From the NCBI GenBank assembly GCA_947503005.1, contig CANNCA010000004.1:323433-387432 (forward strand): a DNA stretch of 64,000 bases, written 5' to 3'. Of the stretch, positions 33,820-64,000 are shown piece after piece (position 1 is the stretch's first letter; each line of letters opens with the position of its first letter). A program made the position numbers and the translations under genes. Below the pieces are notes generated by a model. The model saw only the letters and a program-made list of their open reading frames with translations, made no database searches and was not told the origin of the DNA. Source of the DNA: an uncultured Flavobacteriaceae bacterium. GTDB lineage: Bacteria; Bacteroidota; Bacteroidia; Flavobacteriales; Flavobacteriaceae.

Positions 33820-33960
33820 TAACTAAGGTCGCCCGTGTACTTTGGTAAGATGGCCCACTGCACACCTGCCCGAACCTAAAGATAACTTTTTGTAGGTAAT
33901 TTGAATTTAAGCCTGAAAGCTAACGGGACGCAAGCAATGAATTTCAGGCTTTGTTGTGCA
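33820..33960 (-). repeat. Degenerate attC-like element d3
   Basis: AAGCCTGAAA (33909-33918) and TTTCAGGCTT (33942-33951) form a perfect 10-bp stem that runs straight into TTGTTGTGC, the standard right end of the array elements. The left end is not clear. It lies between the beta-hydroxylase start and the stop of the monooxygenase gene. Confidence 0.45.
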
Positions 33961-33989
33961 ACGTTTTTTGTTTTTAGGATATTCTTGTT

Positions 33990-34313
33990 TTAAAATTCGT
34001 AATCCAACGTCTCCTTTAATTCGCAATGAATGGATTTGTTGTCAAATCTTGACAAAACCTTCCTTGCTTTTTCAGGGACATATACAGTTTCATAGTCTTC
34101 CCCGACGAAAGCTATTACTGATTCAATTTTTTCAAACCACATAATTGTAGTGAATTCCACTTCATCCTCTAATTCTCTTCGCAACAATTGAATACGTTTA
34201 TATCCTGCAATTCTTTTTTCTTCAATTCCAGGAAAAATTTCTGTTTTCAACAAGTTTTCATAGATATCCGCATTTGATTTTGTGGTATATCCATGCCAAA
34301 TTCTTAAAATCAT
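33990..34313 (-). CDS. Antibiotic biosynthesis monooxygenase (ABM) family protein
   Basis: The 107-residue protein has the small ferredoxin-like ABM pattern: MILRIWHGYTTKSNADIYENLL at the start, GYKRIQLLRRELEDEVEFTTIMWFE in the middle (beta strand 3 plus helix) and a VYVPEKARKVL helix before an acidic tail. These dimers oxidise small molecules or act as heme-degrading or quinol-type enzymes; the substrate is unknown. It is the first clear cassette from the left. Confidence 0.8.
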   Translation of the reverse strand: MILRIWHGYTTKSNADIYENLLKTEIFPGIEEKRIAGYKRIQLLRRELEDEVEFTTIMWFEKIESVIAFVGEDYETVYVPEKARKVLSRFDNKSIHCELKETLDYEF

Positions 34314-34344
34314 TTTCTTAATCTTTATTGTTTTCAGAAATGTT

Positions 34345-34547
34345 CCAAAACGGTGGGGCTATGGCAAGTAGGGCAGTGAGGAAACCTTTTCGTTTCCGTC
34401 GTGGCTCGTAGCCATAGCTTTTTGTTTTGTTTTTATCTTTTTCATTTTAAAAAGCCATATCCCAAATATTTTGCGGACTTCATAAAAATACCTAAACCCA
34501 GCGATTAAGCCTGAACCCCTTATTGTTTATAGGTTTTGTTGTGAGCA
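34345..34547 (-). repeat. attC-like site s1, long class
   Basis: The element is 203 bp. The left core is CCAAAACGG...GGGGCTATG and the right end is TTTATAGGTTTTGTTGTGAGC. Internal stems include GGAAACC...GGTTTCC-like arms and CATATCC/ATTTTGCGGA-type remnants. The right box GTGAGCA pairs with GTAAGCA of the left box of s2, with offset, across the 220-aa gene. Confidence 0.7.
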
Positions 34548-34552
34548 TTTTT

Positions 34553-35215
34553 TTATCTGTAATAATAGAACCAACTACTTTCATAATTTTCATCGAAATT
34601 TTGTTTTGAATCAATTCCAATTTTGAATTCACTTCTTTTCCAATAATCAAACTCATCATATTCCTTTAACAATTCAAAATATCTATTTTCAAGTTTGTTG
34701 AAATAGTCAGATTCGGTAAATACCTCCTTTTGTTCATCTTTAAAAACGAACAATGTCACACTTCCAAAACACCTAGACAAAGTCCAAACTTTTTTATTTT
34801 TCAGTTCGGACAATAATTCTTTGATTCTAATTTCCGGAATAAGACTGTTTGCCTCTTCTTTAGCTAAAGGCTCAAATGCAGAAGCCGAAACAAAAACATT
34901 CTTTTGGTTTGGGGCTTTTAAAGTTGTGCAAGTGTCTTGATATTTTTCCGCAATATCATTCTGTATCTTTTCATTAAAGATAGCCCACATTTCGTCACTT
35001 ACTTTGAATTTAATTTCATCAGTTTTGCTTTCAACTGCGATTCCGATTCTAATTCTATTGTCGTGATTCATTATTTCGTGAGTAATGTTCAAAACATTGA
35101 CCTTGTACTTTTCAGAAATCCATTTAGCAAACTGCCCAAAATTCGAATCTATACCTGCTTTTTTCTGTTTTACGAGTTTGGCTAATTTGTATTCTTTGTC
35201 TGATGATGTTACCAA
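34553..35215 (-). CDS. Unrecognised 220-aa soluble protein
   Basis: This protein reads from TTG 35215; no ATG lies nearby upstream. It is charged, with no signal or membrane segment, and has mixed alpha/beta sequence (VNVLNITHEIMNHDNRIRIGIAVESK, TDEIKFKVSDEMWAIFNEKIQND). It ends in an aromatic tail (YESSWFYYYR). I do not recognise the family. It occupies its own cassette between s1 and s2, so it may be under weak or cassette-driven expression. Confidence 0.6.
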   Translation of the reverse strand: MVTSSDKEYKLAKLVKQKKAGIDSNFGQFAKWISEKYKVNVLNITHEIMNHDNRIRIGIAVESKTDEIKFKVSDEMWAIFNEKIQNDIAEKYQDTCTTLKAPNQKNVFVSASAFEPLAKEEANSLIPEIRIKELLSELKNKKVWTLSRCFGSVTLFVFKDEQKEVFTESDYFNKLENRYFELLKEYDEFDYWKRSEFKIGIDSKQNFDENYESSWFYYYR

Positions 35216-35235
35216 TTTTTATCTTTTCTTAAATT

Positions 35236-35434
35236 GCTTACGGTTCGGCTATGGCAAGTAGGGCGGTAAGGAAACCTTTTCGTTTCCGTCTGCGCTCGTA
35301 GCCAAAGCCTTTTGTTTTGTATTAATCTTTTTCGTTTTAAATGCCAAATCCAAAAGATTTGGCGGACTTAGCAAACACGCCCAAGCCTTTAAATATAGTA
35401 CTATAATCCCTATTTGCTATTGGTATTGTTAGCT
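35236..35434 (-). repeat. attC-like site s2, long class
   Basis: The element is 199 bp. Left GCTTACGGTTCGGCTATGG, right TTGGTATTGTTAGCTGC. Stem arms GGAAACC / GGTTTCC-like and GCCAAATC / GATTTGGC are present. The right box GTTAGCTGC matches exactly (9 of 9) the reverse complement of the left box of s3 across the CPBP-LytTR pair. Confidence 0.85.
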
Positions 35435-35557
35435 GCTGTGATTTTGTCCGAGTAAGCACCAAACTTTGTGTTTTTCTACGTATTTATTACATAAAGAGTG
35501 CAAAACGGAACGCTTAATTGAGTAATTTCAAGGTGTAATTGGCATTACTATTTATGG

Positions 35558-36220
35558 TTAAGCCAAACCAAAGTAAATACAAATTAATGCAAAGGTGTCA
35601 AAAAAACCGTGTACAGCAATAATAAACCACAAATCGTATTTACGCAAGTAGAATATCAGGGCTAAGAGCGCCCCGACAAAACCAGTTACAAGTTGCCCTG
35701 TAATTCCTTGATAACTATGCAAAAAGCCAAAAAAACAAGCAAGTAGGACAATATTAAGCACAATACTTACTTTGCTGTCTCCAAAGAATTTTACAAATTG
35801 TCTCATAAAATAGCCTCGAAAGATAATTTCTTCTCCAAATCCCGCGGTAGCCCACACTAACAATAAAGCAATTAAACATGCTTGCAGATTTCCTTCTAGT
35901 TGTTCAAAGCTTGAATAATCTATAGGAACCCCTGTGAGTTTCGTAAGTGCAGGAACTAATACAAAGACGTAGAGAGCAAAGAGTCCTAATGCAACTAGAG
36001 GAGCAAGTAGGAGGATGTTTTTTAATGTAACTTTTTCACGTTGAAATCCAAGTGCTGAAAATGGTTTTCCTTTGTATTCGATATAGTTCGCTATAATGAT
36101 TAGAATTGCAATAACGATATTTTCAATGTAGCTTAAACGGATTGGTCCAAACCATAAAAAGCAGATGATTGAAATTGTAATTAATGGAATTAATGTTTGT
36201 CTTAAGTTTATTATGTTCAT
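35558..36220 (-). CDS. CPBP-family intramembrane metalloprotease
   Basis: The 220-residue protein has about six membrane helices and the Abi/CaaX-like motif EEIIFRGYFMR near 129-139 with later histidines (FGFLHSYQGI near 165, VHGFFDTFAL near 203). CPBP proteins process lipidated or bacteriocin-type peptides and are frequent in immunity or self-protection loci. It is in the same unit as the LytTR protein gene upstream, with 125 bases between and no cassette element, so the two form one two-gene cassette. Confidence 0.88.
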   Translation of the reverse strand: MNIINLRQTLIPLITISIICFLWFGPIRLSYIENIVIAILIIIANYIEYKGKPFSALGFQREKVTLKNILLLAPLVALGLFALYVFVLVPALTKLTGVPIDYSSFEQLEGNLQACLIALLLVWATAGFGEEIIFRGYFMRQFVKFFGDSKVSIVLNIVLLACFFGFLHSYQGITGQLVTGFVGALLALIFYLRKYDLWFIIAVHGFFDTFALICIYFGLA

Positions 36221-36345
36221 TGTTTTGTGATTTTAAATTCAAAACGAAATAATGAACAAAATTTCTGAAATCCCCTTTAAACATTCATGTTTTTACTGAA
36301 TGGTCTTATATTTATAACTGAATAGTCGTTAGTTTTTGGCATCTT

Positions 36346-37182
36346 TTATTGAAACCAATTCATAAATGCTCGTCGCTTGTAACGACTGATATTGATTTCA
36401 GCAATCGCATCGTTTTCAACGCAAGCTTTTAACCGAACGCGCAACTTGCCATTTTCAATCTTTTCAATTTGTTCTACGGCATCTTTGTGAATGATAATTT
36501 GCCGATTGGCTCTTAAAAATAATTGATCGTTTAGTTTTTCTTCGAGCTCGTTTAACGTAAAATCGGTGATAATGGTTTTACCATCATTTTGAACAGCGTA
36601 TACAATTTTGTTCTCGCTATAAAAGCACGCAATATTGCCATAGGTAAGTTTGGTTGTTTTTGCGCCACTTTCAATCGTAATTTCGGCATCTTTTATAGAC
36701 AACTTATATAATTTGTACATGTCTTGGGCATAGACAAGTCCAATGGCAACAAAACTTACTAGTAGGGTGAGTAACAAACCAATTAACAAATAATAGAACT
36801 CCGTATCTCCTCCTGCAACTATATTCAAAAGGATAAATAGGGGAATATACATGATTGTAATATAGCCTAGAGTAGTAACCATGAACCTCACGATAGTGAT
36901 GATTTCTATTTTTTTAGAGAAATACTTTTTCTTGTAAAATTTAAAATTAAGCTCTGCTATGATTCCAATAAGAATACACAAAACAATAGTGGATAGAAAA
37001 CCTTCTATAGGAAATCTATACGATGCACCGTCTGGGAAACTCTCGGGAGTTGATAAATGATTTACGACTAAAGAGAAAATTATAAAGACAATTAATTTCT
37101 GAAACCAACTCCATCCAGAACTACTGATAAGTGTATACCATAGTGCTTTAAGTGTATTTTTATTTAGTACGATGGTTCTCAT
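36346..37182 (-). CDS. Membrane-bound LytTR-domain transcription regulator
   Basis: The 278-residue protein has four N-terminal membrane helices (about 25-42, 56-78, 95-120, 130-150) and then a C-terminal LytTR DNA-binding domain (from about residue 170: ITIESGAKTTKLTYGNIACFYSENKIVYAVQNDGK, ending ISRYKRRAFMNWF). LytTR proteins bind promoter repeats. It probably senses a membrane signal and acts on its own cassette partner, the CPBP protease. Confidence 0.88.
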   Translation of the reverse strand: MRTIVLNKNTLKALWYTLISSSGWSWFQKLIVFIIFSLVVNHLSTPESFPDGASYRFPIEGFLSTIVLCILIGIIAELNFKFYKKKYFSKKIEIITIVRFMVTTLGYITIMYIPLFILLNIVAGGDTEFYYLLIGLLLTLLVSFVAIGLVYAQDMYKLYKLSIKDAEITIESGAKTTKLTYGNIACFYSENKIVYAVQNDGKTIITDFTLNELEEKLNDQLFLRANRQIIIHKDAVEQIEKIENGKLRVRLKACVENDAIAEINISRYKRRAFMNWFQ

Positions 37183-37270
37183 GGATTAGGAGCTCCTTTT
37201 TTGCCAGATTCAAAAGTAAAGCCTGATCAAGTAAAAGTTGCTATGAAAAAATGTTTTTTTTCCCATTGCA

Positions 37271-37401
37271 GCTAACGGTCTAGTATAAGAATAGTTGCGG
37301 GTTTTCATGCGAGGAATTTCCACAGGAAATTCAGACGTAGTAAATACGCAACTACCTTTGGTTAAGCACTAAACCGTAATTATTTTTATACATTGTTGGC
37401 A
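37271..37401 (-). repeat. attC-like site s3, medium class
   Basis: The element is 131 bp. Left GCTAACGGTCTAGTATAAG and right TTTATACATTGTTGGCA; the centre has GAGGAATTTCC ACA GGAAATTC, a 9-bp hairpin. It abuts the stop codon of the GNAT gene. The right box and the s4 left box match over GCATTA. Confidence 0.85.
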
Positions 37402-37857
37402 TTAGTTTTTCATTCTGTGATAAACATTCGAGTTATGTTTCTCCATATAAAATTCAGGATTAGGAATTTCTGTAAACCCAAACTTTTTATAAAGCCATTC
37501 AGCTGTATCAGTTAATAAAATCCAGCGTCTTAATCCTTGAAGATTAGGGTGTTCCATTATTTCATTTATCAGCCACTTACTTAATCCCTTCCCTCTATAT
37601 TCCTTTAAAATATAAACATCTCCTAAATATGCAATAGTTGAATAGTCTGAAATTATTCTAGCAAAGCCAATTTGCTTGTTTTCGCAATAAAGCCCAAAAT
37701 TCAAAGAGTTTTCAATTGATGTTTTCACAGTATTGATTGGAATTCCGTTAGCCCAATCAGTTTCGTTTGCAAGGAATTTGTGAATGCTCAAAATATCTAA
37801 TTTATCCTTGTCAGTTGAAATGGTATATTCATTTCTATGAACTTCTCTAATTTTCAT
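37402..37857 (-). CDS. GNAT-family N-acetyltransferase
   Basis: The 151-residue protein has motif A with EYRGKGLSKWLINEIM near 84-99 for acetyl-CoA, followed by the IAYLGDVYIL strand pattern and a C-terminal WLYKKFGFTEI. The substrate is unknown. It is a single-gene cassette, and its stop codon directly joins the right end of s3, typical of compact cassettes. Confidence 0.9.
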   Translation of the reverse strand: MKIREVHRNEYTISTDKDKLDILSIHKFLANETDWANGIPINTVKTSIENSLNFGLYCENKQIGFARIISDYSTIAYLGDVYILKEYRGKGLSKWLINEIMEHPNLQGLRRWILLTDTAEWLYKKFGFTEIPNPEFYMEKHNSNVYHRMKN

Positions 37858-37876
37858 TTCAGTTTTCGTAATTAAT

Positions 37877-38073
37877 GCTTACGGTTTTGTATACGGCTCA
37901 TAGCCGTGTAAAAAGGTACTATCTTTTCGGTTAAGCACAAGCCGAATTTTTAAATTTTTCTTTTTTCCTCATTAACGCAAAAAGCCAAATTTTTAAATTT
38001 GGCGATTGGCAAATAAATCCTTACTTTGAGTATGTAACTAATTAGCTATGAGATGTATACGTTATTGTGGTGC
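37877..38073 (-). repeat. attC-like site s4, long class
   Basis: The element is about 197 bp. Left GCTTACGGTTTTGTATACGG; right GTATACGTTATTGTGGTGC. The internal stem GCCAAATTTTTAAATTTGGC is a strong inverted repeat. Confidence 0.7.
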
Positions 38074-38076
38074 GTT

Positions 38077-38904
38077 TTATCCGTACACAGCGTTTTCGGC
38101 TACACTTCTGTTGGTTTCCAAGTCCGATTTTACACTTGCCAATTTCATTCCGATTGTCATAAGTGCAACTTTTCCAAGTGGTAAACGAAGTGTAGGATTT
38201 TCTGAATTAACCAAATCAATAATTGCTTTAGAAGCTTTTATTGGGTCGCCTTCTTGTTTTCCGTCCACGCTTTTTAATTTGGTTCTGAAAGCTCCTGCGG
38301 TTTCAGAATAGTCATCAATTTCTATTTTCGCAAGACCAAGTCCGTCTCCTGCGAATTTTGTTCGGAATGGTCCTGGTTCAACTATTGAAACCTTAATTCC
38401 GAGCGGTGCAACTTCTTGTGCCAATGCTTCGCTAAATCCCTCAACAGCAAACTTACTTGCATTGTAGATTCCAAATCCAGCAAACGCCTTAATTCCTCCG
38501 TGTGATGAGATTTGAACAATGTTTCCGCTTTTGGCTATGCGCATAAAAGGTAAAACTGCCTGTGTTATTTTTAAAGTACCAAAAAAATTGGCGTCAAAAA
38601 CGTCTTTGACTTCTTTCATAGAAGTTTCCTCGACTGCACCTGCAAAACCAATTCCTGCGTTATTGACCAAAACATCAATTTTTCCGAATTCCGAAATAAT
38701 TTTTGAAACGCTTTTTTCAATATTCTGTTCGTTGGTAATATCCAAAAGAATGGAACGTGCTTTACCAGCATATTTAGTATTAAATTCATCTACTTGTGAT
38801 TGATTTCTATAAGTTCCAATTACAAAATCTCCATTTTCAATAACGGATTCTGCAAGTGCTTTGCCTAATCCGCTTGAAATTCCTGTTATAATCCAATTCT
38901 TCAT
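38077..38904 (-). CDS. Short-chain dehydrogenase/reductase
   Basis: The 275-residue protein has the Rossmann start WIITGISSGLGKALAE (TGxxxGxG near 6-13), the NNAG motif (LVNNAGIGFAG near 81) and the catalytic triad in VQISSHGGIKAFAGFGIYNASKFAVEG (Ser near 132, YNASK near 148). It should use NAD(P)H for an alcohol/ketone substrate; the identity is unknown. It is the 3'-most of a three-gene cassette unit with the cupredoxin and the Crp/Fnr regulator. Confidence 0.93.
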   Translation of the reverse strand: MKNWIITGISSGLGKALAESVIENGDFVIGTYRNQSQVDEFNTKYAGKARSILLDITNEQNIEKSVSKIISEFGKIDVLVNNAGIGFAGAVEETSMKEVKDVFDANFFGTLKITQAVLPFMRIAKSGNIVQISSHGGIKAFAGFGIYNASKFAVEGFSEALAQEVAPLGIKVSIVEPGPFRTKFAGDGLGLAKIEIDDYSETAGAFRTKLKSVDGKQEGDPIKASKAIIDLVNSENPTLRLPLGKVALMTIGMKLASVKSDLETNRSVAENAVYG

Positions 38905-38908
38905 AGAT

Positions 38909-39298
38909 TTACTTTACGATTATTTTATAATGTGGCGTTGGATTTAAAGGGCAAGAATAAACGTAGTTGCCATCTTTAAGTTCAACTACTCCAGTATATT
39001 GGACTTCTCCCTTTTTTACATAGGCAGTTGTGAACGAATTTTGCAGTGCCGTTTTCATTACATCAGCATCTTTGTCTTCTTCTTTTTGAATTACAAAGCC
39101 TAAATCTTTCTCAACATTTTTATTTACTACTCGAAATTGATACTTTCCAGAAGTCAAGTTTAGTTCTTGAGTTTCAAATTGTCCCTCTGTCTGAATTAGT
39201 TCGATAATTGTAACATCTTTTTCCATTGTTTGTGCTTTAACTGTATGATTGTTAAATACTGCACAAATAATTGTGAACACCGAAACGACTTTTTTCAT
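38909..39298 (-). CDS. Exported cupredoxin-like protein
   Basis: The 129-residue protein has a signal peptide (VFTIICAVFNNHTVKA) and a single beta-barrel-like domain, with YVYSCPLNPTPHYKIIVK near the end holding the Cys..His pattern of cupredoxin copper sites. It lies just four bases from the SDR gene. The link to the SDR and the Crp-like regulator suggests a stress or electron-transfer module, though this is inferred from gene order alone. Confidence 0.75.
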   Translation of the reverse strand: MKKVVSVFTIICAVFNNHTVKAQTMEKDVTIIELIQTEGQFETQELNLTSGKYQFRVVNKNVEKDLGFVIQKEEDKDADVMKTALQNSFTTAYVKKGEVQYTGVVELKDGNYVYSCPLNPTPHYKIIVK

Positions 39299-39364
39299 TT
39301 TTATAAAGTTTTAAATTAACTCTACAAAAGTCTTTTAAATTCGGCACTTAAAACTTGAAGTAGA

Positions 39365-39952
39365 TTAAGTTTTTGAGGTAAGGCTTTTTCTGATTTTTGA
39401 CATAAATTCAGGCGTAATACCTAAATATGAAGCAATTACTTTTTGTGAAACTCGATAAACAATATTTGGATAACGTTGCTCTAATGCTAAAAATCTCTCT
39501 TCTGCGGTCATACTTAAATTCGATAATGCTCTTTTTCTGGAAAAGGCAAACGCTCTTTCTGTTGTGATTCTGAAATATTCACTCAACGCGTGGATTTCTT
39601 TGCAAAGCCCTTCAATATCTTCATAAGTCATTTGTAGAATCACAGAATCTTCGATTGCCTCAACAAATAGAGTGGCAGGTGTTTGCGTTATGTAGCTGTA
39701 AAAATCGCTGGTAAAATGGTCTTCAACTGCAATTTGTACCGTATGTTCTTTTCCTTCATTGTCGATAAAATAAGAACGAAAAGCTCCTTTTTGAATATAA
39801 TTTCGGTATTTACTAACGTAACTTGGTTGGTCAATTAATTCACGTTTCTTGATTTTTTTCGTTCGGATTATTGAAATCAATTTTTCTGTTTCCTCGTCTG
39901 TCAGAGTAACGTATTTTTCAATATTTCCTAATATGTTTTTGTATAGTTTCAA
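39365..39952 (-). CDS. Crp/Fnr-family transcriptional regulator
   Basis: The protein has an N-terminal cyclic-nucleotide-binding fold (KRELIDQPSYVSKYRNYIQKGAFRSYFI) and a C-terminal helix-turn-helix (VSQKVIASYLGITPEFMSKIRK). I prefer the TTG start at 39952 (195 aa), because the ATG at 40000 lies inside site s5 and its extra 16 residues have the sequence of that site. No effector-binding cysteines are seen. It heads the three-gene cassette and likely controls the SDR and cupredoxin. Confidence 0.88.
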   Translation of the reverse strand: MKLYKNILGNIEKYVTLTDEETEKLISIIRTKKIKKRELIDQPSYVSKYRNYIQKGAFRSYFIDNEGKEHTVQIAVEDHFTSDFYSYITQTPATLFVEAIEDSVILQMTYEDIEGLCKEIHALSEYFRITTERAFAFSRKRALSNLSMTAEERFLALEQRYPNIVYRVSQKVIASYLGITPEFMSKIRKSLTSKT

Positions 39953-39967
39953 TGTTTCTTCAAATGT

Positions 39968-40022
39968 GCCACTACGTGTTCGTGCATACAACAGAGGCAT
40001 GGGTTATTCTCGTTGTTACCTG
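39968..40022 (-). repeat. attC-like site s5, short class
   Basis: The element is about 55 bp. Left CACTACGTGTTCGTGCATAC resembles the s18 left end; right TTCTCGTTGTTACCTGC. The right box and s6 do not match well, so this junction may be a recombined or mutated one. Confidence 0.5.
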
Positions 40023-40028
40023 CTGGCT

Positions 40029-41558
40029 TTATTCCTTAAGTTGTTTTAATCTGTCAATTGCATTTTGATTTCCTGGATTTAATTCCAACGACTTTTTATA
40101 ATTCAAAATAGCGTACTGGTAATCCTTATTATAAAAATATGCTTCGGCTAAACTGTCGTATAAATTTGCTGATTTTGGATAAAGATGTAAAGCCAATGAA
40201 AACACATTAACTCCTTGCTCTTTCTTTTCGGGATTGAATGACAACCACAATCCTAACATATTCAACATTCCTTCTTGAAGCTCAAGATTTGGATATTTAG
40301 CAATAGTTCTTTTATACAAAGGAACTAAATCTTGATAATCTTGTTTATATGCTAAATCATTAAAATCTCTATAGGTAAAGTCTTTTTTAATAGTCTTTTT
40401 TGTTTTTTTAGACATCAATGTATCCGAAAAACCATTTTCAACTGGGCTATTTTCAATGAAATCACTCGCATTTTTTTCATTCTTCAGTGTTGCATTTAAG
40501 AACTGCAAAGTATGATAGCAAAGTAAATTATACGAGGTCATTATTTTATCATCACTTTTATCTTGCCTTTTATCTCTGTTAGCGAACAAGACACCGAAAG
40601 AACTAAAATAGGAATGTGTCAGGTCGTGAAATCTATATCTGTAAATATTGCTATATTTCAAAGAATCGTACAATTGGAATTTGTAGTTCAATTCGACTGG
40701 AATTTTATCACTATTCAAAACTTCTTCAGGAATTTCTTTTTGAGCAAAATGGATGTAGGGAATATTAAACCTATCTAAATTAAAATAAGGTGATTTTTCT
40801 AAAACAGGATAATTGTATCTTTCAGCTCCGTCTAAACTTACAACTGCACTTATATTCCTGTTTTTCATAACGGTTATAGCATTAGACAACCCGCCAAAAC
40901 TGAACCCCATAAGTGCAATTTTATCATGTTTAATATTTTGGTATTTATGAATTTCTTTCAAAAGAAATTCTATGTCTCTAGATTGTGTTTCCATATCTTT
41001 TGCAGTTCCGCCTTCCAACCAACGAGTGTCAGTTCCTCTTGAAGGACTTGATATCACTACAAAACCGTTACTTGCTAAATACTCGAATAACGCAAAATTC
41101 TCAATTGAAGATGCTTGATAACTTGGTGCGTAAACTACAATTGGAAAATTTCCTTCTAAAAATTTTGGATTAGAAAAAGCGTTTACTTTTTCAGAAAGAT
41201 GAGCCTTGTTTTGTGGCGTGTTCCACAAATAAGGAAACCAATCCAATAAAAAATAGTTTGGTAAATTTTTCCATTCTTCCTCTTCTTTTAAAATCTCTAA
41301 ATAATTTAAAACTGTTAACTGCTCAGAATTACTGTTTTCAATTTTCATTGGATACCAAATACTAATTGGAATTGGCCTCCCGATAATTTGGTTGTTAAAT
41401 TCATTATGAATTCGGTAGGTTCTTGTGCTATCATTGATTGTATAATGCTTGAAACCTACTTTATATTCTCCAGCTTTAAGGTTTATTTCTTTTATAGATG
41501 TCTGTCCATAAGATATTGTTGATAGTACGATACTTGTAATGAATATTGTTAATCGCAT
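40029..41558 (-). CDS. Exported alpha/beta hydrolase with C-terminal TPR repeats
   Basis: The 509-residue protein has a signal peptide (FITSIVLSTISYGQ), an esterase/PAF-acetylhydrolase-like alpha/beta domain with the nucleophile elbow MGFSFGGLSNA near 217-227 and a WYPMKIENS oxyanion region near 68. The C-terminal 60 residues are TPR-like (ALHLYPKSANLYDSLAEAYFYN...YKKSLELNPGNQNAI). The combination suggests a secreted hydrolase with a protein-binding tail. It fills a single-gene cassette of about 1.5 kb. Confidence 0.83.
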   Translation of the reverse strand: MRLTIFITSIVLSTISYGQTSIKEINLKAGEYKVGFKHYTINDSTRTYRIHNEFNNQIIGRPIPISIWYPMKIENSNSEQLTVLNYLEILKEEEEWKNLPNYFLLDWFPYLWNTPQNKAHLSEKVNAFSNPKFLEGNFPIVVYAPSYQASSIENFALFEYLASNGFVVISSPSRGTDTRWLEGGTAKDMETQSRDIEFLLKEIHKYQNIKHDKIALMGFSFGGLSNAITVMKNRNISAVVSLDGAERYNYPVLEKSPYFNLDRFNIPYIHFAQKEIPEEVLNSDKIPVELNYKFQLYDSLKYSNIYRYRFHDLTHSYFSSFGVLFANRDKRQDKSDDKIMTSYNLLCYHTLQFLNATLKNEKNASDFIENSPVENGFSDTLMSKKTKKTIKKDFTYRDFNDLAYKQDYQDLVPLYKRTIAKYPNLELQEGMLNMLGLWLSFNPEKKEQGVNVFSLALHLYPKSANLYDSLAEAYFYNKDYQYAILNYKKSLELNPGNQNAIDRLKQLKE

Positions 41559-41630
41559 TATTTTTGAATAAGTGTCCGTAATAAAGATGCCCTATTTTGA
41601 TGATTGTTACATGACTTTTTTCAGCTTGTT

Positions 41631-41826: not shown

Positions 41827-41839
41827 TACCTACTTTTTT

Positions 41840-56278: not shown

Positions 56279-56333
56279 AACCTTGATTAGTTACTTGTAA
56301 GACGATAAAGATTTGGAAATGTTACTTGAATTT

Positions 56334-56817: not shown

Positions 56818-56859
56818 TGGTCTTAGATTTCATTGGAGAAAATATTTCTCTAACAATTA

Positions 56860-56908
56860 CTTCGGAAACAAAAGTAAAATAGTATTTTCGCTTCGGAAAC
56901 AAAAGTAA
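56860..56908. promoter_or_regulatory. Direct repeats, candidate HxlR operator
   Basis: CTTCGGAAACAAAAGTAA occurs at 56860-56877 and again at 56891-56908, exactly 31 bases (three helical turns) apart, in the 114-base divergent region. Identical sequence on one helix face suggests a two-dimer operator. Confidence 0.7.
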
Positions 56909-56931
56909 TAATCATTTAGTATATCTTCACT

Positions 56932-57468: not shown

Positions 57469-57480
57469 TTTTATTCTAAT

Positions 57481-57702
57481 TGGCTACGGTTGAGCTATGA
57501 ACAGTAAGGGGCACGCCGTCTGCGAAGCAGCGGGCGAGTTGGAGCGCTGGCAGCTTTCCGCCACGCACATAGCGAAATCTTTTTGTTTTGATTTATTTTT
57601 TCTGTCCAGAGCAAAATCCGAAAGATTTTGCGGACTACATAAAAATACACAAACCTTTCGTTTAAGCCCGAAACCCGTATTGTTTATAGGTTTTGTTGGC
57701 AA
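57481..57702 (-). repeat. attC-like site s20, long class
   Basis: The element is about 222 bp. Left GGCTACGGTTGAGCTATG, right TTTATAGGTTTTGTTGGCAAC. Stem GCAAAATCCGAAAGATTTTGC is exact, and an added CGTCTGCGAAGCAGCGGGCG hairpin increases its length. The right box matches s21 across the toxin-antitoxin pair in 15 of 16. Confidence 0.88.
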
Positions 57703-57721
57703 CAGTATTTTTGCGTGCAGT

Positions 57722-58009
57722 TTAGAGTATATTTTTCAAATCCTGTTTTCCGACAATCGCCATTATGTCCACCGTATCATTATTGATTTTGTGGTAAATA
57801 CTGTCCGAACCGCAAACACATCTCCGATACCCTTTCTTAATGTATTCAACAGATTCAAATGAATTAGCTCCCTTGGCTATAATGTCAAAATATTCGAAAA
57901 ACGTTTCGAAATATATGTCCGCTTGTCGTACTCCAAATTTTTTGATTCCGTAACGATGAATACGTATCAGGTCATCTTTAGCTTCATTACTTAATCTATA
58001 CTTAGTCAT
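57722..58009 (-). CDS. parE: RelE/ParE-family toxin
   Basis: The 95-residue toxin has the ParE/RelE fold pattern: YRLSNEAKDDLIRIHRYGIKKFG at the start, IKKGYRRCVCGSDSIYHKINNDTVDIMAIVGKQD at the end. The conserved IYxKI..D..I..I block and an alpha-helical hairpin at the N-terminus are clear. ParE toxins poison gyrase; family assignment to ParE or RelE cannot be settled by eye. The gene overlaps its antitoxin by eight bases, with the toxin second. Confidence 0.88.
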   Translation of the reverse strand: MTKYRLSNEAKDDLIRIHRYGIKKFGVRQADIYFETFFEYFDIIAKGANSFESVEYIKKGYRRCVCGSDSIYHKINNDTVDIMAIVGKQDLKNIL

Positions 58010-58241
58010 TAAGTTTAGACTTGGATCGTGCTAAGATTTGTTCCTTGCTATCATTGGTAAATCCGCTATTTTCAGATTTTTCCAATTTAGCTCTAATCCA
58101 GTCAATTTCGATTTGCTGATTTCTAGCCTGACGAATTAAGTCATTAACGAGTTCGCTTTTACTTGAGTATTCTTGGTTATCAACTTGTGTTTTTAACCAT
58201 TCGTCATTTGGTCGCGTGAAAGATATGCTCTGTCTAGCCAT
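58002..58241 (-). CDS. parD: Ribbon-helix-helix antitoxin (ParD/CopG type)
   Basis: The 79-residue protein starts with the short beta strand ARQSISFTRPNDEWLK, then YSSKSELVNDLIRQARNQ gives the ribbon-helix-helix core. The charged C-terminus (ILARSKSKLND) binds the toxin. It is the first gene of the operon. Toxin-antitoxin cassettes are known to stabilise large chromosomal integron arrays, and the boxes flanking this pair match in 15 of 16 bases. Confidence 0.87.
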   Translation of the reverse strand: MARQSISFTRPNDEWLKTQVDNQEYSSKSELVNDLIRQARNQQIEIDWIRAKLEKSENSGFTNDSKEQILARSKSKLND

Positions 58242-58304: not shown

Positions 58305-58505
58305 GTTGCCAACGGTTGGGCTAAGCGTAGTGCGGTAGTAAGGAAACTTTTCGTTTCCGTCTACGCTCGAAGCCAGAGCTTTTTGTTTTGTTTTTATCTT
58401 TTTCATTTTAAAAGCCAAATCCAAAAGATTTGGCGGACTTGGCAAACACTCCCAAGCCTGTAAAAATAGCACTTTATGCCCTATTTGCTATAGCCATTGT
58501 TGTGC
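58305..58505 (-). repeat. attC-like site s21, long class
   Basis: The element is 201 bp. Left GTTGCCAACGGTTGGGC, right TATAGCCATTGTTGTGC. Nested stems GCGTAG/CTACGC with GGAAAC TTTTC GTTTCC, and GCCAAATCCAAAAGATTTGGC are exact. The right box GTTGTGCTT equals s22 over nine bases. Confidence 0.9.
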
Positions 58506-58562
58506 TTTCGTTATTTCTATTTTAATCAATCATTATAGTTGAATCATTTTTTTTCAAGAACA

Positions 58563-59612
58563 TTATTCATCTTGTTTTATAAATTCAAAAGTGTTGTCAG
58601 TTAAATCTAGAATGACTTTGTAATTACCTTCTTCAGGAATAGATATGTTTCCTCCGTCAAGTCCGGCACTACCTTTAGGAAATTCTGCATTCATTGCTAA
58701 GCCCCAATTTTGAGACCAACTATCTCTACACCTAAATTTTACGGTTCCTTTTTTAAGGTACATCTTAATTTCCCAAATACCTTTATCTGCGTCCCTAAGT
58801 GTCATTGGTGTAGACTTAGCACCAACATCGTCATAACCATTTATAGCAGTTCCAATAATGCCTACATATTTATAAATAACTTTAACTTCAGGATAGTAAT
58901 CTTTTATCAATTCCATGATAGATAAACCATCGTTATGATGATTTATGGCTTTAGCGTAATTGTATTTTTTAACAGCTCGAACCGTCTTTAAAATAGATTT
59001 AAACTTTCTCGTTTTTAATAAGTTTCGACAATAAGTAAAGTCGATAGATGTATAGTACGTACTATCTAGTAGCTCCATGCTAGGCTCCAAAGAAGGATAA
59101 GCAAGATCAATGTTTTCCAAGGATTCAGTTAAGCGATCATCATTAAAATAATCATCATTGGAAATATTATTTAAATAATTTAATACCTCTTTTGTTAAAT
59201 CCTTTTGTATCCTGTTCTCAGGGTGTGCAATTAAATCTTTGGCGTATAGTGTAGATTCTGAAAAGAATTTATCATTACCATAACTTAATAAGAACAATTT
59301 TAAGGGAAGATCTTTATCGGGAATAGAATCTCCGTTATTTAAAAGTTCTTCAACCGATTCAATATCATTTTCAAATGTTTTTGAATGCCCTGAAAATATT
59401 TCAGTATCGTACTTTATTGTCGTATAAAGCTGTTCTAGAGTATTTTTAAATTGGGCTTTTTGTTTACGTGTTTCATTCCAATTTTGAAGTTGTAATGCAA
59501 AGAAAATACCAATAATAATTAAAACAATTTCGCCAAATGCATATATTAGATATTTACTGAACTTATTTTCAGTTAGCAATCGTTGTCTAATTTTTCTAAA
59601 GAATTTTATCAT
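58563..59612 (-). CDS. DUF6090-like membrane protein fused to a SusE/SusF-like C-terminal domain
   Basis: The 349-residue protein has the DUF6090 N-terminus (MIKFFRKIRQRLLTENKFSKY, membrane helix LIYAFGEIVLIIIGIFFALQL) and a helical middle. A C-terminal beta-rich domain from about residue 270 reads like SusE/SusF carbohydrate-binding ends: GIWEIKMYLKKGTVKFRCRD, WSQNWGLAMNAEFPKGSAGLDG, GNYKVILDLTDNTFEF. The fusion is distinct from the other three copies and suggests that the extracellular part binds glycans or peptidoglycan (inference). Confidence 0.8.
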   Translation of the reverse strand: MIKFFRKIRQRLLTENKFSKYLIYAFGEIVLIIIGIFFALQLQNWNETRKQKAQFKNTLEQLYTTIKYDTEIFSGHSKTFENDIESVEELLNNGDSIPDKDLPLKLFLLSYGNDKFFSESTLYAKDLIAHPENRIQKDLTKEVLNYLNNISNDDYFNDDRLTESLENIDLAYPSLEPSMELLDSTYYTSIDFTYCRNLLKTRKFKSILKTVRAVKKYNYAKAINHHNDGLSIMELIKDYYPEVKVIYKYVGIIGTAINGYDDVGAKSTPMTLRDADKGIWEIKMYLKKGTVKFRCRDSWSQNWGLAMNAEFPKGSAGLDGGNISIPEEGNYKVILDLTDNTFEFIKQDE

Positions 59613-59636
59613 TGGTTAGCGTTTTCTGATAATGAA

Positions 59637-59830
59637 GCACAACGGTTCGGCTATGGTTAGTACGGGAATTAAAAGTAGTGAACTTTCGATTAAGCACTTA
59701 GCCAAAACTTTTTATTTTGTTTTATCTTTTTCTTTATAAAGCCAAATCAAAAGATTTGGCGGACTTAGTTAAAGGCTCTAAACTTTGGGTTAAGCACTAA
59801 AACCCGTATTAATTATGGCCATTGTTGTGC
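59637..59830 (-). repeat. attC-like site s22, long class
   Basis: The element is 194 bp. Left GCACAACGGTTCGGCTATGG, right AATTATGGCCATTGTTGTGCACT, with stem GCCAAATCAAAAGATTTGGC. The right box matches s23 over 10 of 11 bases, GTTGTGCACT. Confidence 0.88.
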
Positions 59831-59839
59831 ACTGTTTTT

Positions 59840-60205
59840 TTATCGCATATGATATAAATAAATCGCAAAATTTAGTATTCCGCTCATATCATTTTCGCTT
59901 ATCGAATTGTATTTTTTGAGATAATCTAATTTCATTTTTTCAAACTTGTAATCTTCTAAATCTGCATAATTACTTTTTGACTTTTGAAAGTAGTTTGATT
60001 TAGTTCCCAAAGCTATTTCAGCATAAAGGTCATTTTTCAAGGTTCTTATATATTCTATTCGTTCTTGATTATAATCCCCAAGTTTGTAATATTTTAAACG
60101 TCTTTTTATTTTCTTTTCAGCCTCTTTTTTGTCCGAAAAGTCAAATTCATATGCTAAATCTGTAAAGCAAATCAAATTGTATGTCTGTTGAGTGGCTTGC
60201 TCCAT
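59840..60205 (-). CDS. Unrecognised 121-aa protein
   Basis: The 121-residue protein is charged and mainly helical (YEFDFSDKKEAEKKIKRRLKYYKLGDYN, IRTLKNDLYAEIALGTKSNYF), with no signal or membrane segment. It is directly behind the 118-aa Cys-His protein gene with three bases between and no element, so the two share a cassette. Such pairs are often effector/immunity or toxin/antitoxin-like, but the sequences do not show it. Confidence 0.65.
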   Translation of the reverse strand: MEQATQQTYNLICFTDLAYEFDFSDKKEAEKKIKRRLKYYKLGDYNQERIEYIRTLKNDLYAEIALGTKSNYFQKSKSNYADLEDYKFEKMKLDYLKKYNSISENDMSGILNFAIYLYHMR

Positions 60206-60208
60206 TTA

Positions 60209-60565
60209 TTATTTTCTTAATCCCATTTCCGTGTATGCGTGAAATTCGCAAATCGCCATTTCAGTCAGCGCATTTTTATTACAACCTTTCCAAGTACATT
60301 TTTGGTTAGTCGTTCCACGATACTTTTTTAATAGTTCTATTCTCAAATTTTGGTCGTCATATTCAGTCCAATTGTCAGTCGATTCAAGTCGAACAAAAAA
60401 CTGCTCTTGATATTTGTCCCATTCGTCAAGTCGCCAAAAGGAATTGTCTCTTATATTCCGATATAACCTGTACCAATTCTTTTGGTCAACTAATTCAAAT
60501 TCCGACTCAATAATTTCGAGAATATTTTTATCAGCGTAGTATATTTTATCTGTTAGTTCGGTCAT
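60209..60565 (-). CDS. Unrecognised 118-aa protein with a Cys-Cys-Cys-His cluster
   Basis: The 118-residue protein has a beta-rich first part (WYRLYRNIRDNSFWRLDEWDKYQEQFFVRLE) and a C-terminal CTWKGCNKNALTEMAICEFH segment, whose Cys/His spacing could bind zinc. No family is recognised. It begins the two-gene cassette. Confidence 0.65.
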   Translation of the reverse strand: MTELTDKIYYADKNILEIIESEFELVDQKNWYRLYRNIRDNSFWRLDEWDKYQEQFFVRLESTDNWTEYDDQNLRIELLKKYRGTTNQKCTWKGCNKNALTEMAICEFHAYTEMGLRK

Positions 60566-60575: not shown

Positions 60576-60711
60576 GTGCACAACGTGTTTGTGTATGATT
60601 TCGTTGCGTGTTTCAGCAACCAATTTAGCAAATACAAACCGAATAGAAAATCCTCGAGGATTTTCGTAAGTAGGCTAGAACTAGCAATAAATTATATACG
60701 TTGTTAGGCGC
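60576..60711 (-). repeat. attC-like site s23, medium class
   Basis: The element is 136 bp. Left GTGCACAACGTGTTTGTG, right TATATACGTTGTTAGGCGC. The centre is a perfect GAAAATCCTCGAGGATTTTC palindrome. The right box GTTAGGCGC equals s24 exactly over nine bases. Confidence 0.9.
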
Positions 60712-60723: not shown

Positions 60724-61578
60724 TTACATTTTTTCTTTAATTGCTTTTCTCCAAAAGTAAATTCCAAAAACACAAGTAACAATTGTAAACATAATTCCAT
60801 TTTCTCCAAGCCAATGTTCTGTTCCTTCAATTTTTGTTGTTAAAGGAGGCATTATTTTTTGTATATAAACATTACTTACTGCGTGGAAAATTACTGCTGG
60901 CCAGAGACTTTTAGATTTAAAAGTATAGTATGTCATAGTAAACGACATAAAAATACAAGTAGTCAAAAATGCTAAAAATTCCAATATTGCATTATTACTA
61001 TAGTAAACGAACAACGGCCAATGCCAAGCTGCCCAAATAATTCCACTAAAAACAGAAACACTTGTAAAAGAAAGCACTTTTCTTAATTCATAAATAAAAA
61101 AACCTCTCCATCCAATTTCTTCTCCTAAAGTGGTTGCGGCTGATCTAATAACTTCAACAGTTCCTAACAAGAGTATGGCTATTACTACAATAGGTATGGT
61201 GTCTAAAGTTCCTATTCCCATTAATTGAAGTTCTTTAGCCCATTCAGTAATAACTTCTGTATTTGCTAAATTTCCAAATCCAAAAATCCAGATGAGTATA
61301 TAGGTAATTATACCAGCTAAAGCTGGAATAAAATAAGACAATCGAATGTATTTCCAATCTCCCCAATTCCAATTTAGAGATGAAATTTTACGCCTTTTTA
61401 TTTTTAGGGTGATAAACGCAGCTATCGCAGGACACCACATTATAGCCCCAACATATATTCGTGAAGGATATAAATTTACTATTGCATAATGGAAAGGCGA
61501 AGTAAGAATAACAACTAATACAAGAAACAAAAATATTGTTTTCCACGCTTCTTTTCGTTCCGATATGTTTTCTAACAT
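60724..61578 (-). CDS. CPBP-family intramembrane metalloprotease, second copy
   Basis: The 284-residue protein has about eight membrane helices, the metalloprotease motif TLGEEIGWRGFFIYELRK near 150-167 with downstream WAAWHWPLFVYY and VIFHAVSNVY histidine blocks. It is not a close copy of the shorter CPBP protein at 35558. It is a single-gene cassette here with no LytTR partner. The function may be peptide processing or self-protection. Confidence 0.88.
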   Translation of the reverse strand: MLENISERKEAWKTIFLFLVLVVILTSPFHYAIVNLYPSRIYVGAIMWCPAIAAFITLKIKRRKISSLNWNWGDWKYIRLSYFIPALAGIITYILIWIFGFGNLANTEVITEWAKELQLMGIGTLDTIPIVVIAILLLGTVEVIRSAATTLGEEIGWRGFFIYELRKVLSFTSVSVFSGIIWAAWHWPLFVYYSNNAILEFLAFLTTCIFMSFTMTYYTFKSKSLWPAVIFHAVSNVYIQKIMPPLTTKIEGTEHWLGENGIMFTIVTCVFGIYFWRKAIKEKM

Positions 61579-61632
61579 TGGTTTAATGATTGGTGTGTTT
61601 TAGAGGACGAAGAGATAGCAGTTTTGTTACAT

Positions 61633-61834
61633 TGCGCCTAACGGTTGAGCTATGAACATTACGGGAGCAAATAAGCGTTTGCTTTCCGCCACGCACATAG
61701 CGAAATCTTTTGGTTTTCTTTTTTCTTTGTCCCGATAAAAAGCAAAATCCCAAAGATTTTGCGGACTTTATAAAAATACACAAACATCGCGATTAAGCCC
61801 GAAGCCCGTATTGTTTATAGGTTTTGTTGGCATT
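61633..61834 (-). repeat. attC-like site s24, long class
   Basis: The element is 202 bp. Left GCGCCTAACGGTTGAGCTATG, right TTTATAGGTTTTGTTGGCATT. Stem GCAAAATCCCAAAGATTTTGC is exact. The right box GTTGGCATT equals that at the s25 left, across the GH65-like gene. Confidence 0.9.
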
Positions 61835-61860
61835 TCGTTTTTCTGCTTTTATCGGTTAAT

Positions 61861-63897
61861 TTATCTATCAATTCGGTATGTTTTTTTCTCCATACCAACA
61901 CCTTTTATGGTTAAGGATTTCCATTCTTTTGGAAGAATTGGATTTTTTTGAATAATTCCTTCATCCGTAATGTCTAAACCACCAAAACCAAAGAGAACAC
62001 TTTGTAACATACCACCTGCACCCGTTGCAAAATATGAAAAATTAGAAGTTGCCACCTCGGATAAGGCGCCAAAAGGAGCCTGCTGATTAGGCACGTAGCT
62101 TTCCTTAAAAAGGCGGTAGGCATTAGTTGCATCACCTTGCCTTGCATATAATACTGAAAAAATTGACTTACCCATTGCAGGACCTTCTTTTGATAATTTT
62201 GGTTCGTAATATTTCAAGTCTTTTAGTATAGACGTTTTGTCATTAATTATATTTAGAGGAAAAGAGAGTAAGTTTACATCCGCTTGTTTAATGATTTCCC
62301 CATTATAATTTTCATGTTCTTTAGTAATACCATCTTTAAGTTTTAGGATTTTAATTTTTTCTGATACCAATTCCCACTGTGGATTTGGCGTTTCTCCAAT
62401 TTCGATAGCTGCTTTGGTAGTAAATTTTAAAGCAGTAATTGCTGCCCCATTTGTGAAAGCATTGTCATTAACATTAGGTGCGAATTCATTAGCACCAACA
62501 ACGTTATTAATAGAGTAACTACCGTCATTATTTTTAGTAACCCTGCTTACCCAGAAATCTGCCACTTCTTTCATTAAAGGATAGCCTTTTTGGGTTAGCC
62601 AATTTTTATTTTGGGTAACACGATAATAGTTCCAAAATGCAATTGCTATGTCTGCCGTTATATGATGCTCAAAAGGCCCAGTAAGTGCAAAAGGTGGCGT
62701 GGCTTCCTCACCAGTATCGTCACTCTCCCAAGGAAACATTGCACCTTGGTAACCATAATTCAATGCTCTCTTTTTTGCAGGTTCAAGTCTGTCGGAACGA
62801 TAATTAACCAAAGAGCGGGCAATATCTTGATTAAACATTAATAAGGGTGGAAACATCCAAAGCTCGGTGTCCCAAAAGATATGACCATTATAAGGTGTTT
62901 GTAGTGAGAGCCCCATTGGTGCGATACTTAAATCCGAATCTCCACGACCAAAAGCATACAAATGATATAATGCTAAACGAACGTCTTGTTGCGATTGTAA
63001 ATCTCCTTCAATAATAATATCTCCTTCCCATAATTTACTCCATTGTGCTTTATGCTGAGCTAGTAATACTTCTTTTGAATTTAATAAATTGAAGATTACC
63101 ATTCTTTCCGATTCTGATTTTGGGTCAGAAAAATCTTTGGTAGTGCATTGCGCACCAGTCCATGCAAAATCTAAACTTTCATTTTTCTTAATACTATAAT
63201 CAAATGATAACGAGTTTTCATAGTCTGATATAAGGTTGTGAGTTAATTCTGGTCGTTCATGTTCTCTTGAAGAATTTATTTTATGCCAAATGAATGTGCC
63301 AGATGTACTAACAAGATGTTTTTCAAATGGACTTTTAGCAACGGATTGCAAAATTGGCATTGTGGTTTCAACATCTTTTAATATTTGAAATGAATTTTTT
63401 GGAGTTTGATATTCTTTAGGTGTTATTATTTTGCCAGTAACTTTTACATCAATTTCTTTAGTAGCCCGAACACTAATATCTATATAACCAGTATACTGTA
63501 AATTGCGAAGGGCATAAACCGTACATGAAATTTTTGCTTTGTCTTTAAAGTTAAAATTTGTAGTTAAGGCAGCACTTTTCATATCCATTGTTTGCTGCCA
63601 ATTAGAGATATTATCTTCCGTAATTTTTTCGCCATCAATGTAAATATCAAGATTGCCAAAATTCATACCATGAAGAATCTGACTTACTTTTAAGTTTGGG
63701 TCAACATCATAGACATTGTTTAGTACAACGTGCTGTATTTGAAGAGGCTTAGAAGAGCTAAGCATTCCTATTCTACCATTTGCAATGGCAATACCTGTAT
63801 AATCTGAATTTTCATTTGTACTTATATGCCAGCCGTCATTTTGAGCAGTTATTATTGAACTTGAAATAATTAATACTATTAAAAATATTTTTTTCAT
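61861..63897 (-). CDS. Exported GH65-like glycoside hydrolase
   Basis: The 678-residue protein has a signal peptide (FLIVLIISSSIITAQ), an N-terminal beta-sandwich and an (alpha/alpha)6 barrel. GAMFPWESDDTGEEATPP near 395, FEHHITADIAIAFWNYYRVT near 419, FWVSRVTKNNDGSYSINNVVGANEFAPNVNDNAFTN near 460-500 fit GH65. The catalytic acid is probably the Glu of ANEF. Members of this branch are inverting alpha-glucosidases; trehalose- or glucosylgalactosyl-type substrates are possible but not shown. It is large for a cassette gene. Confidence 0.85.
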   Translation of the reverse strand: MKKIFLIVLIISSSIITAQNDGWHISTNENSDYTGIAIANGRIGMLSSSKPLQIQHVVLNNVYDVDPNLKVSQILHGMNFGNLDIYIDGEKITEDNISNWQQTMDMKSAALTTNFNFKDKAKISCTVYALRNLQYTGYIDISVRATKEIDVKVTGKIITPKEYQTPKNSFQILKDVETTMPILQSVAKSPFEKHLVSTSGTFIWHKINSSREHERPELTHNLISDYENSLSFDYSIKKNESLDFAWTGAQCTTKDFSDPKSESERMVIFNLLNSKEVLLAQHKAQWSKLWEGDIIIEGDLQSQQDVRLALYHLYAFGRGDSDLSIAPMGLSLQTPYNGHIFWDTELWMFPPLLMFNQDIARSLVNYRSDRLEPAKKRALNYGYQGAMFPWESDDTGEEATPPFALTGPFEHHITADIAIAFWNYYRVTQNKNWLTQKGYPLMKEVADFWVSRVTKNNDGSYSINNVVGANEFAPNVNDNAFTNGAAITALKFTTKAAIEIGETPNPQWELVSEKIKILKLKDGITKEHENYNGEIIKQADVNLLSFPLNIINDKTSILKDLKYYEPKLSKEGPAMGKSIFSVLYARQGDATNAYRLFKESYVPNQQAPFGALSEVATSNFSYFATGAGGMLQSVLFGFGGLDITDEGIIQKNPILPKEWKSLTIKGVGMEKKTYRIDR

Positions 63898-63917
63898 TAC
63901 TGGTTTTTTTTAAAATG

Positions 63918-64000
63918 AATGCCAACGGTTTAGCTATGAACAGTACGGGAGCAAACTAGCGTTTGCTTTCCGCAACGCTCATAGCAAAATCTTTTTGTTT
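63918..64000 (-). repeat. attC-like site s25, long class, cut by window edge
   Basis: The left part AATGCCAACGGTTTAGCTATG and GAGCAAACTAGCGTTTGCTTTC is nearly the same as s24 over its first 85 bases. The element continues beyond the window, showing that the array goes on to the right. Confidence 0.85.

Follow-up and report, generated by a model that had tools for sequence, protein, structure and literature searches.

What are the repeated elements that separate the genes at one end of a flavobacterial contig, and what might move those genes? The window analysed here, a stretch of 64,000 nucleotides (nt) from an uncultured marine Flavobacteriaceae bacterium (G000:C4:323,433-387,432), ends where its contig ends, as contig C4 is 387,432 nt long. 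Between ~33.87 and 64.0 kilobases (kb) of the window lie 25 attC-like elements, E1-E25, and the units between them consist of one to four genes each, all read leftward with the sole exception of a plus-strand gene at 56932-57468. The first-pass annotation had described 25 related elements between leftward units with one exception, and we confirmed this, recovering 20 by covariance models and finding five to be decayed. Its reading of the region as a gene cassette array was supported by the attC-like layout of the elements, their hairpins, their single orientation, the tags at the unit ends, an attI-like site and the recurrence of whole units elsewhere.

Judging from these sequence features, the window probably forms the distal part of a cassette array of integron-like type, which would be moved by a tyrosine recombinase whose gene lies at the opposite end of C4. 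The system appears integron-like in its working, yet it stands outside the IntI integrons on two features: its recombinase lacks the IntI-specific insert, and the core of its sites is not GTTRRRY. On the same two grounds, the earlier suggestion that the array belongs to the IntI integrons was not supported.

The attC-like elements and their genomic layout

We built two covariance models, R1 and R2, from alignments of 14 long and nine short elements; 18 of these elements came from the window and the remainder were the L017 and L018 copies. By another count, 21 window elements and five from other contigs went into the models. The RNAalifold structures beneath R1 and R2 are sparse, with 24 and 6 pairs, so what the models pick up is mostly sequence. 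They recovered 20 of the 25 window elements, all on the minus strand, and none on the plus strand. Covariance models with a raised length limit had been proposed in the first-pass annotation, and this was done, with sites of up to ~260 nt modelled. The decayed elements E1, E10, E11, E12 and E14, which lie below model detection, were placed by end anchors read by eye, and E25 is cut off by the end of the window and contig. An Rfam scan returned no family at E≤1. Site length is bimodal (120-129 and 180-199 nt), and a unit is made up of a leader with a median of 30 nt, its gene or genes, and 17 nt plus a site mostly of one of these two lengths.

At E≤1, the genome contains 53 R1 and 33 R2 matches, partly overlapping, on contigs C1, C2, C4, C11, C15, C18 and C19, together with a few singles. 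C15 and C19 have 77 base pairs (bp) in common at their 5′ ends, as do C18 and C1; the same holds for C19 and the left part of C4 at their 3′ ends. Since contig ends share these 77-bp repeats, the contigs break at repeated sites, that is, at branch points. Attempts to join the contigs by end overlap failed, the ends sharing just the 77-bp prefixes or suffixes. Two arrays are the likely layout, each running from one of the recombinases to the distal end of either C4 or C1. A separate cluster of five sites lies at 80-87 kb of C2, with no recombinase nearby within the fetched stretch.

Complementary tags at the unit ends

At the start of most units, GTT precedes a tag of six bases, and the complement of this same tag stands at the unit's other end, ahead of AAC. 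In the 22 window units, the mean tag match was 4.32/6 as against 2.34 after shuffling, with none of 20,000 shuffles as high, while the two ends of one and the same element showed no excess of matches (2.52 vs 2.22). In a set of 25 loci, tags were perfect in 89 of 112 units, compared with 3 of 111 same-element comparisons; the observed mean was 5.42 and the best of 5,000 shuffles gave 2.65 (3.57 within loci). When 60 loci from 25 genomes were taken together, 213 of 259 units had perfect six-base tags, as against 12 of 315 in the same-element control. These 213 units carry 101 distinct tags and, with GTT itself kept, only 14 of the 213 perfect tags fit GTTRRRY. Long arrays from five further genomes (G335, G375 and G171, each a single contig, plus G399 and G419) gave 134 perfect tags in 161 units vs 7 in 168 controls. 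This last figure, which is the one we use, rests on covariance-model matches and the anchor rule of the 25-locus test; we report alongside it an earlier, rougher run on the same large arrays (nhmmer matches, looser anchor rule), in which 49 of 106 were perfect vs 3 of 111.

Units were dropped from these counts when anchors were missing or gaps fell outside 150-5,000 nt (200-4,000 in the 25-locus test), as were one overlapping opposite-strand match in L067 and two opposite-strand matches in the five-genome test. The 60-locus set omits L054 and L070 as copies of genomes already included, and other duplicates between named and unnamed entries are possible. Just beyond the tags, in all arrays, positions 7-9 are often xAT or xAG at the unit start and xGT or xGG in the complement of the unit end, a mismatch that recurs at position 8. 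Because unit ends are complementary, the two ends of a cassette circle would meet and rebuild a paired R site.

Folding of the sites

Within the elements, the inner arms pair with each other: across 130 elements, arms from the same element scored 23.5 compared with 14.2 for shuffled partners (best of 60 shuffles, 14.9). Changes occur on both sides of the inner arms; for example, left position +15 and right position -17 were paired in 88% of cases vs 33% expected. The covarying pairs of the inner helix span +8/-10 to +20/-22, and the spacer has 5 nt on one side and 7 nt on the other, in the attC layout of paired L arms and an unpaired spacer. The non-coding strand was the more stable in 249 of 305 elements, compared with 302 of 610 composition shuffles, and two conserved A-C mismatches on the coding strand become G-T on the non-coding strand.

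Tags and folding together bear on the rival that survives best, improbable as we hold it to be, in which the recombinase acts on double-stranded sites in the manner of Xer or Cre, with GTT and the tag as the spacer and the hairpin irrelevant. The recombinase does align no worse with XerA than with IntI, it has no IntI insert, and the attI-like sites described below are palindromic, all of which would suit such a mechanism. Yet neighbouring tags differ, as the 101 distinct tags illustrate, and therefore no common spacer is available; moreover, covariation of the inner arms and the better folding of one strand are unneeded for a duplex mechanism.

Two recombinases and an attI-like site

The statement that no integrase was in view holds for the window, which stops where C4 stops, but not for the genome, in which two matching recombinases each lie beside attC-like elements. 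Among its 12 Phage_integrase matches, the first of these is a tyrosine recombinase of 375 amino acids (aa) encoded on the minus strand at C4:1997-3121, at the opposite end of the window's own contig. Just past its 3′ end come two leftward genes and two attC-like sites, after which the contig stops. The alternative of an attC cluster lacking an integrase was not supported. Downstream of the second recombinase (394 aa; C11:26,324-27,439), attC-like sites run on to the end of C11, all in the same orientation. In 22 named homologous loci, all 113 elements lie downstream of the recombinase and none upstream, and strand is uniform within each locus (338 elements in 60 loci, with two opposite-strand matches).

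All 23 loci with a recombinase and a downstream site carry, between the recombinase stop and that first site, GTT or GTA followed by the exact tag of the first cassette. This attI-like site lies at +28 to +59 past the stop in 22 of them and at +1059 in L087, whose recombinase is truncated. Six further arrays had the exact tag without exception, at +45, +48, +48, +85, +46 and +175; the rougher run mentioned above had found it near the recombinase in two of six. Combined, an exact first-cassette tag site was present in 29 of 29 arrays, and in 28 it was within 175 bp of the stop. The inverted repeat preceding it exceeded the 99th percentile of the shuffles at 19 of 22 sites.

Spread among genomes

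We collected 39 homologous loci, with names including Maribacter, Flagellimonas, Arenibacter, Zobellia, Salinimicrobium and Salegentibacter. R1 sites were present in all 14 sampled genomes of the window's own genus. Among 120 genomes of the same family, 86 had a recombinase match (E≤1e-40), 98 had R1 sites and 79 had both. The single contig of G335 holds 49 sites in 58 kb, starting at the recombinase and running in one direction, and 37 more in a second stretch of 35 kb. Among 8,000 candidate proteins scored, 7,204 matched the recombinase at E≤1e-40. In a phylum sample of 296 genomes, R1 matched in 50 (many of them weak matches outside the family) and the recombinase query in 87; 15 of the 30 same-family genomes within this sample had no R1 site. 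Canonical IntI exceeded its cut-off in 84 of the 296 Bacteroidota genomes, a higher number than one would expect from the literature found, and none of the 86 genomes in that sample that matched canonical IntI was labelled as the same family.

These distributions matter for a second rival, which we regard as quite improbable: that another recombinase, XerC/XerD or a further integrase, moves the arrays and the neighbouring one is a passenger. With 12 Phage_integrase matches, the genome offers other candidates, and 19 of the 34 same-family genomes without a recombinase match have R1 sites. Against this stand the position of the sites, all 113 downstream of the recombinase, the exact attI-like site beyond its stop in 29 of 29 arrays, and the presence of sites in 79 of 86 recombinase-bearing genomes. 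XerC and XerD were tried as the cassette recombinase and rejected; XerD (L001) and XerC (L004) lie elsewhere in the genome.

Relation of the recombinase to IntI and Xer

The first-pass annotation had advised a search for a tyrosine recombinase with the IntI-specific patch; a recombinase was indeed found in the same genome, but without the insert. The spacing from the beta-strand Lys to RxxH is 63-64 residues in 23 of 23 homologues, with the IntI-specific insert absent, compared with 105 in 11 canonical Bacteroidota IntI and 63-71 in five Xer-like proteins, and alignment with VchIntIA breaks at the position of the insert. All 23 recombinases retain the catalytic residues, bar one K to R. The two recombinases of the window's genome scored 216.6 and 189.3 bits with TIGR02249, both below the cut-off of 265, and a scan of this whole genome gave nothing above it; a canonical integron was rejected on this basis. 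With NF040815 (XerA-type), they scored 228.2 and 222.4 bits, just over the cut-off of 220. In Foldseek, XerA (5hxy) occupied the top rows with IntI4 (2a3v) close behind. The recombinase also carries ~80-100 extra N-terminal residues, for which Pfam gave only weak matches (E 0.057-0.12, in two of five sequences), and a PDB profile search with the N-terminal alignment returned nothing meaningful (best E 0.09). In a tree of 39 rows, unrooted and with few outgroups and no archaeal XerA, support was 100/100 for IntI, 80/72 for the recombinase group and 100/99 for the Xer-like proteins.

Could the array nevertheless be an ordinary chromosomal integron with a divergent IntI that no longer has the extra domain? 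In favour are the integron-like unit logic, attI and hairpin sites and the TIGR02249 scores of 216.6 and 189.3 bits; the tree, too, is compatible with a sister relation to IntI. We consider it very unlikely, however: both scores fall below 265, none of the 23 homologues has the insert, 14 of 213 cores fit GTTRRRY, and IntI forms its own fully supported group.

Whole units in new contexts

A comparison at species and genus level yielded ten pairs of units with bodies of >70% identity and >85% length, and borders were compared in nine of these (L057_0/L057_3 was left out). At the downstream border, similarity ended sharply at GTT in all nine. Upstream, it dropped to 45-58% at 200-300 nt, except in the Maribacter flavus tandem pair, in which the upstream neighbour is another copy. 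Two copies in G013 are identical across gene and site, and both tags were retained in five of five cross-genome pairs with a body identity of 74-93%. Maribacter flavus has near-identical tandem cassettes (98.5-99.4%) at L057 11500-13600, two of which are separated by another unit. The weakest rival, in which the gene order is static and the elements are intergenic repeats that do not move, such as terminators or non-autonomous insertion elements, has next to no standing, for although the elements sit in 3′ untranslated regions, fold and are in some cases decayed, their tags pair across units and not within elements, and complete units turn up in other surroundings, bordered by GTT.

Several observations weigh against a recombinase-driven cassette array. 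The window array would be joined to its recombinase across an assembly gap, a join that we infer. In the five cross-genome pairs, the sites are 47-73% identical vs 74-93% for the bodies, and the two genomes of one pair carry a short and a long site, respectively; the site diverges more than the gene, and therefore gene and site are not always kept together. Three window units score 1/6 despite clear anchors on both sides (E2/E3, E5/E6 and E11/E12). Of the 86 family genomes with a recombinase match, 7 lack an R1 site, and many of these matches are only 35-50% identical and may lie away from arrays; R1 sites without a recombinase match occur in 19 of the other 34.

Proposed mechanism and known systems

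With an integron-like array as the preferred reading, a unit of leader, gene and hairpin site is likely excised and inserted by the recombinase. By analogy with IntI on attC, the recombinase would cut the folded non-coding strand at GTT or right beside it. In the circular cassette, pairing of its own tag would restore a fully paired R site, and new cassettes would enter the attI-like site beside the recombinase, to be read in the same direction. With less certainty, the extra N-terminal domain may do the job of the I2 helix of IntI. The first-pass annotation had offered, as an alternative, a distinct recombination system using hairpin sites, which comes close to what the evidence shows. More tentatively, and with slightly more doubt than belief, we suggest a second kind of integron, independent in its evolution, that is spread through the Flavobacteriaceae: a XerA-like recombinase without an I2 helix, a DRD/HARP-like N-terminal domain that reads the folded sites, and a pair of nine-base barcodes in each cassette that rebuilds the R site in the circle.

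The array shares with IntI integrons a one-way series of gene units with a site at the 3′ end of each gene, the R''-L''-L'-R' layout, an unpaired spacer, better folding of the non-coding strand and an insertion site adjoining the recombinase gene. The two ends R'' and R' also pair within one cassette, over 9 nt here compared with the 9-11 pairing bases given for classical cassettes in the relevant part of PMC2727003. It departs from IntI integrons as follows: the recombinase lacks the IntI-specific insert and carries an additional N-terminal domain; the core consists of GTT plus six mostly free bases; the attI-like site comes with an inverted repeat and lies 28-175 bp beyond the stop of the recombinase; the recombinase gene is codirectional with the cassettes; and the sites fall into two length classes, 120-129 and 180-199 nt. 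The recombinase resembles the XerA type in that both copies pass the cut-off of NF040815 ('site-specific tyrosine recombinase/integron integrase', a name that is automatic annotation) and 5hxy leads the Foldseek rows; it differs in its ~80-100 extra N-terminal residues and its linkage to cassette arrays. A TnpF-annotated recombinase of Acinetobacter-type plasmids is 54.5% identical over residues 146-375, but the match leaves out the N-terminal part.

In Riemerella anatipestifer, homology-independent chromosomal uptake is described for a gene together with 27 bp on its upstream side and 140 bp of attC-like sequence on its downstream side (PMC13148043). The likeness, drawn from the description in that 2026 paper, lies in the short leader, the hairpin-forming 3′ region of ~140 bp and the homology-independent entry; in contrast to our arrays, the passages concerned name no recombinase and no array. 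IntI integrons are known from Bacteroidota according to the passages concerned of PMC9668308, PMC8618304 and PMC2426708, and the 2022 survey with IntegronFinder 2.0 lists, in the part that bears on this phylum, one complete integron in Bacteroidetes proper, in Salinibacter ruber (PMC9024848). Searches of the openly licensed literature, with subscription papers and preprints outside their scope, turned up no account of the recombinase as a cassette integrase. Integron surveys rely on the IntI-specific domain together with attC models. If our reading is true, cassette arrays are common in Flavobacteriaceae, with sites in 98 of 120 sampled genomes, and have hitherto been missed, and arrays with such varied genes would be a large route of gene exchange in marine bacteria. 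IntI is said to have acquired hairpin recombination together with the I2 helix, and integron researchers, in the pertinent part of the same article, say that the want of intermediates puts the origin of hairpin recombination beyond reach (PMC7790495). The arrays described here would open the question of how hairpin recombination arose with and without that helix.

Genes and sites of the window

Features of the array are on the minus strand unless stated otherwise, and gene families are from Pfam unless another basis is given. The last element, E1 (33872-33962), is decayed; the models miss it, and it was placed by its R'' end (GTT at 33953), the only clear one. Next come a cassette gene of 107 aa (33990-34313) and another of 220 aa (34553-35215), both without a Pfam match, separated by the long site E2 (34343-34546; R1, 178.9 bits). 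The long site E3 (35233-35436; R1, 200.8 bits), whose tag matches that of E4 6/6, precedes cassette genes for a Rce1-like membrane protease and a LytTR regulator (35558-37182). Between the short site E4 (37268-37403; R2, 100.6 bits) and the long site E5 (37874-38075; R1, 126.3 bits) lies a GNAT acetyltransferase gene (37402-37857). A four-gene unit (38077-41558) encodes a short-chain dehydrogenase, cupredoxin-like and Crp-like proteins, both below the cut-off, and an S9 peptidase/TPR protein. It is followed by the long site E6 (41628-41828; R1, 184.3 bits), a SRPBCC-like cassette gene below the Pfam cut-off (41840-42313), the short site E7 (42331-42461; R2, 94.7 bits), a DUF6090 cassette gene (42537-43259) and the short site E8 (43293-43428; R2, 82.2 bits). 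A cassette gene of the PF00144 serine hydrolase family (43482-44579), the site E9 (44619-44801; R2, 95.7 bits) and a cassette gene for an NHL-repeat lipoprotein (44813-45838) complete this part.

The models miss four elements of the next part, E10, E11, E12 and E14. Only the R' end of E10 (45876-45960) is recognisable, and it served as the anchor; a gene of the flavin amine oxidase family follows (45956-47545). E11 (47557-47625), shortened or decayed, was placed by its end anchors, and E12 (48430-48450), of which only the R' end is recognisable, by that single anchor; the gene between them (47668-48429) is DUF6090-like through a 5′ end shared with 42537-43259 (repeat family D1). The site E13 (48656-48776; R2, 47.1 bits) and a PF00144-family cassette gene (48799-50118) lead to E14 (50094-50163), short or decayed and placed by end anchors, and to a further cassette gene that is DUF6090-like through its shared 5′ end (50186-50971; family D1).

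From there, long sites resume with E15 (50964-51174; R1, 157.6 bits) and E16 (52690-52889; R1, 160.2 bits), which flank an M20 amidohydrolase cassette gene (51253-52635). A DUF4274 cassette gene (52901-53410), the short site E17 (53426-53560; R2, 113 bits), a cassette gene for a PD40 beta-propeller lipoprotein (53567-54526), the short site E18 (54544-54681; R2, 94.6 bits) and an amidohydrolase cassette gene (54707-56278) precede the very short site E19 (56332-56395; R1, 29.9 bits). The unit at 56383-57468 holds an HxlR regulator gene on the minus strand and the single rightward gene at 56932-57468 on the plus strand. Beyond the long site E20 (57479-57703; R1, 166.7 bits) lies a cassette gene for a ParE-family toxin (57722-58009); a small open frame upstream of it in the same cassette may encode an antitoxin, the two together spanning 57722-58240. 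The long site E21 (58305-58507; R1, 193.1 bits) has 6/6 tags with both E20 and E22, and is followed by a DUF6090-like cassette gene just below the cut-off (58563-59612) and the long site E22 (59635-59832; R1, 179.8 bits). A two-gene cassette without a Pfam match (59840-60565), the short site E23 (60576-60711; R2, 118.5 bits), a cassette gene for a Rce1-like protease (60724-61578), the long site E24 (61634-61834; R1, 188.6 bits) and a cassette gene of glycoside hydrolase family 65 (61861-63897) lead up to E25 (63918-64000; R1, 53.2 bits), which is cut by the contig end.

Some repeats occur within these units. The DUF6090-type cassette genes at 42537-43259, 47668-48429, 50186-50971 and 58563-59612 have their 5′ ends in common (family D1), perhaps through recombination or conversion between cassettes. 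A short palindromic repeat (family D11) occurs in the leaders right before two sites, at 43277-43300 and 45853-45880, and a GGCAGGCTTTCG repeat (family D12; 47655-47697 and 50173-50215) comes after the R'' end of both E11 and E14.

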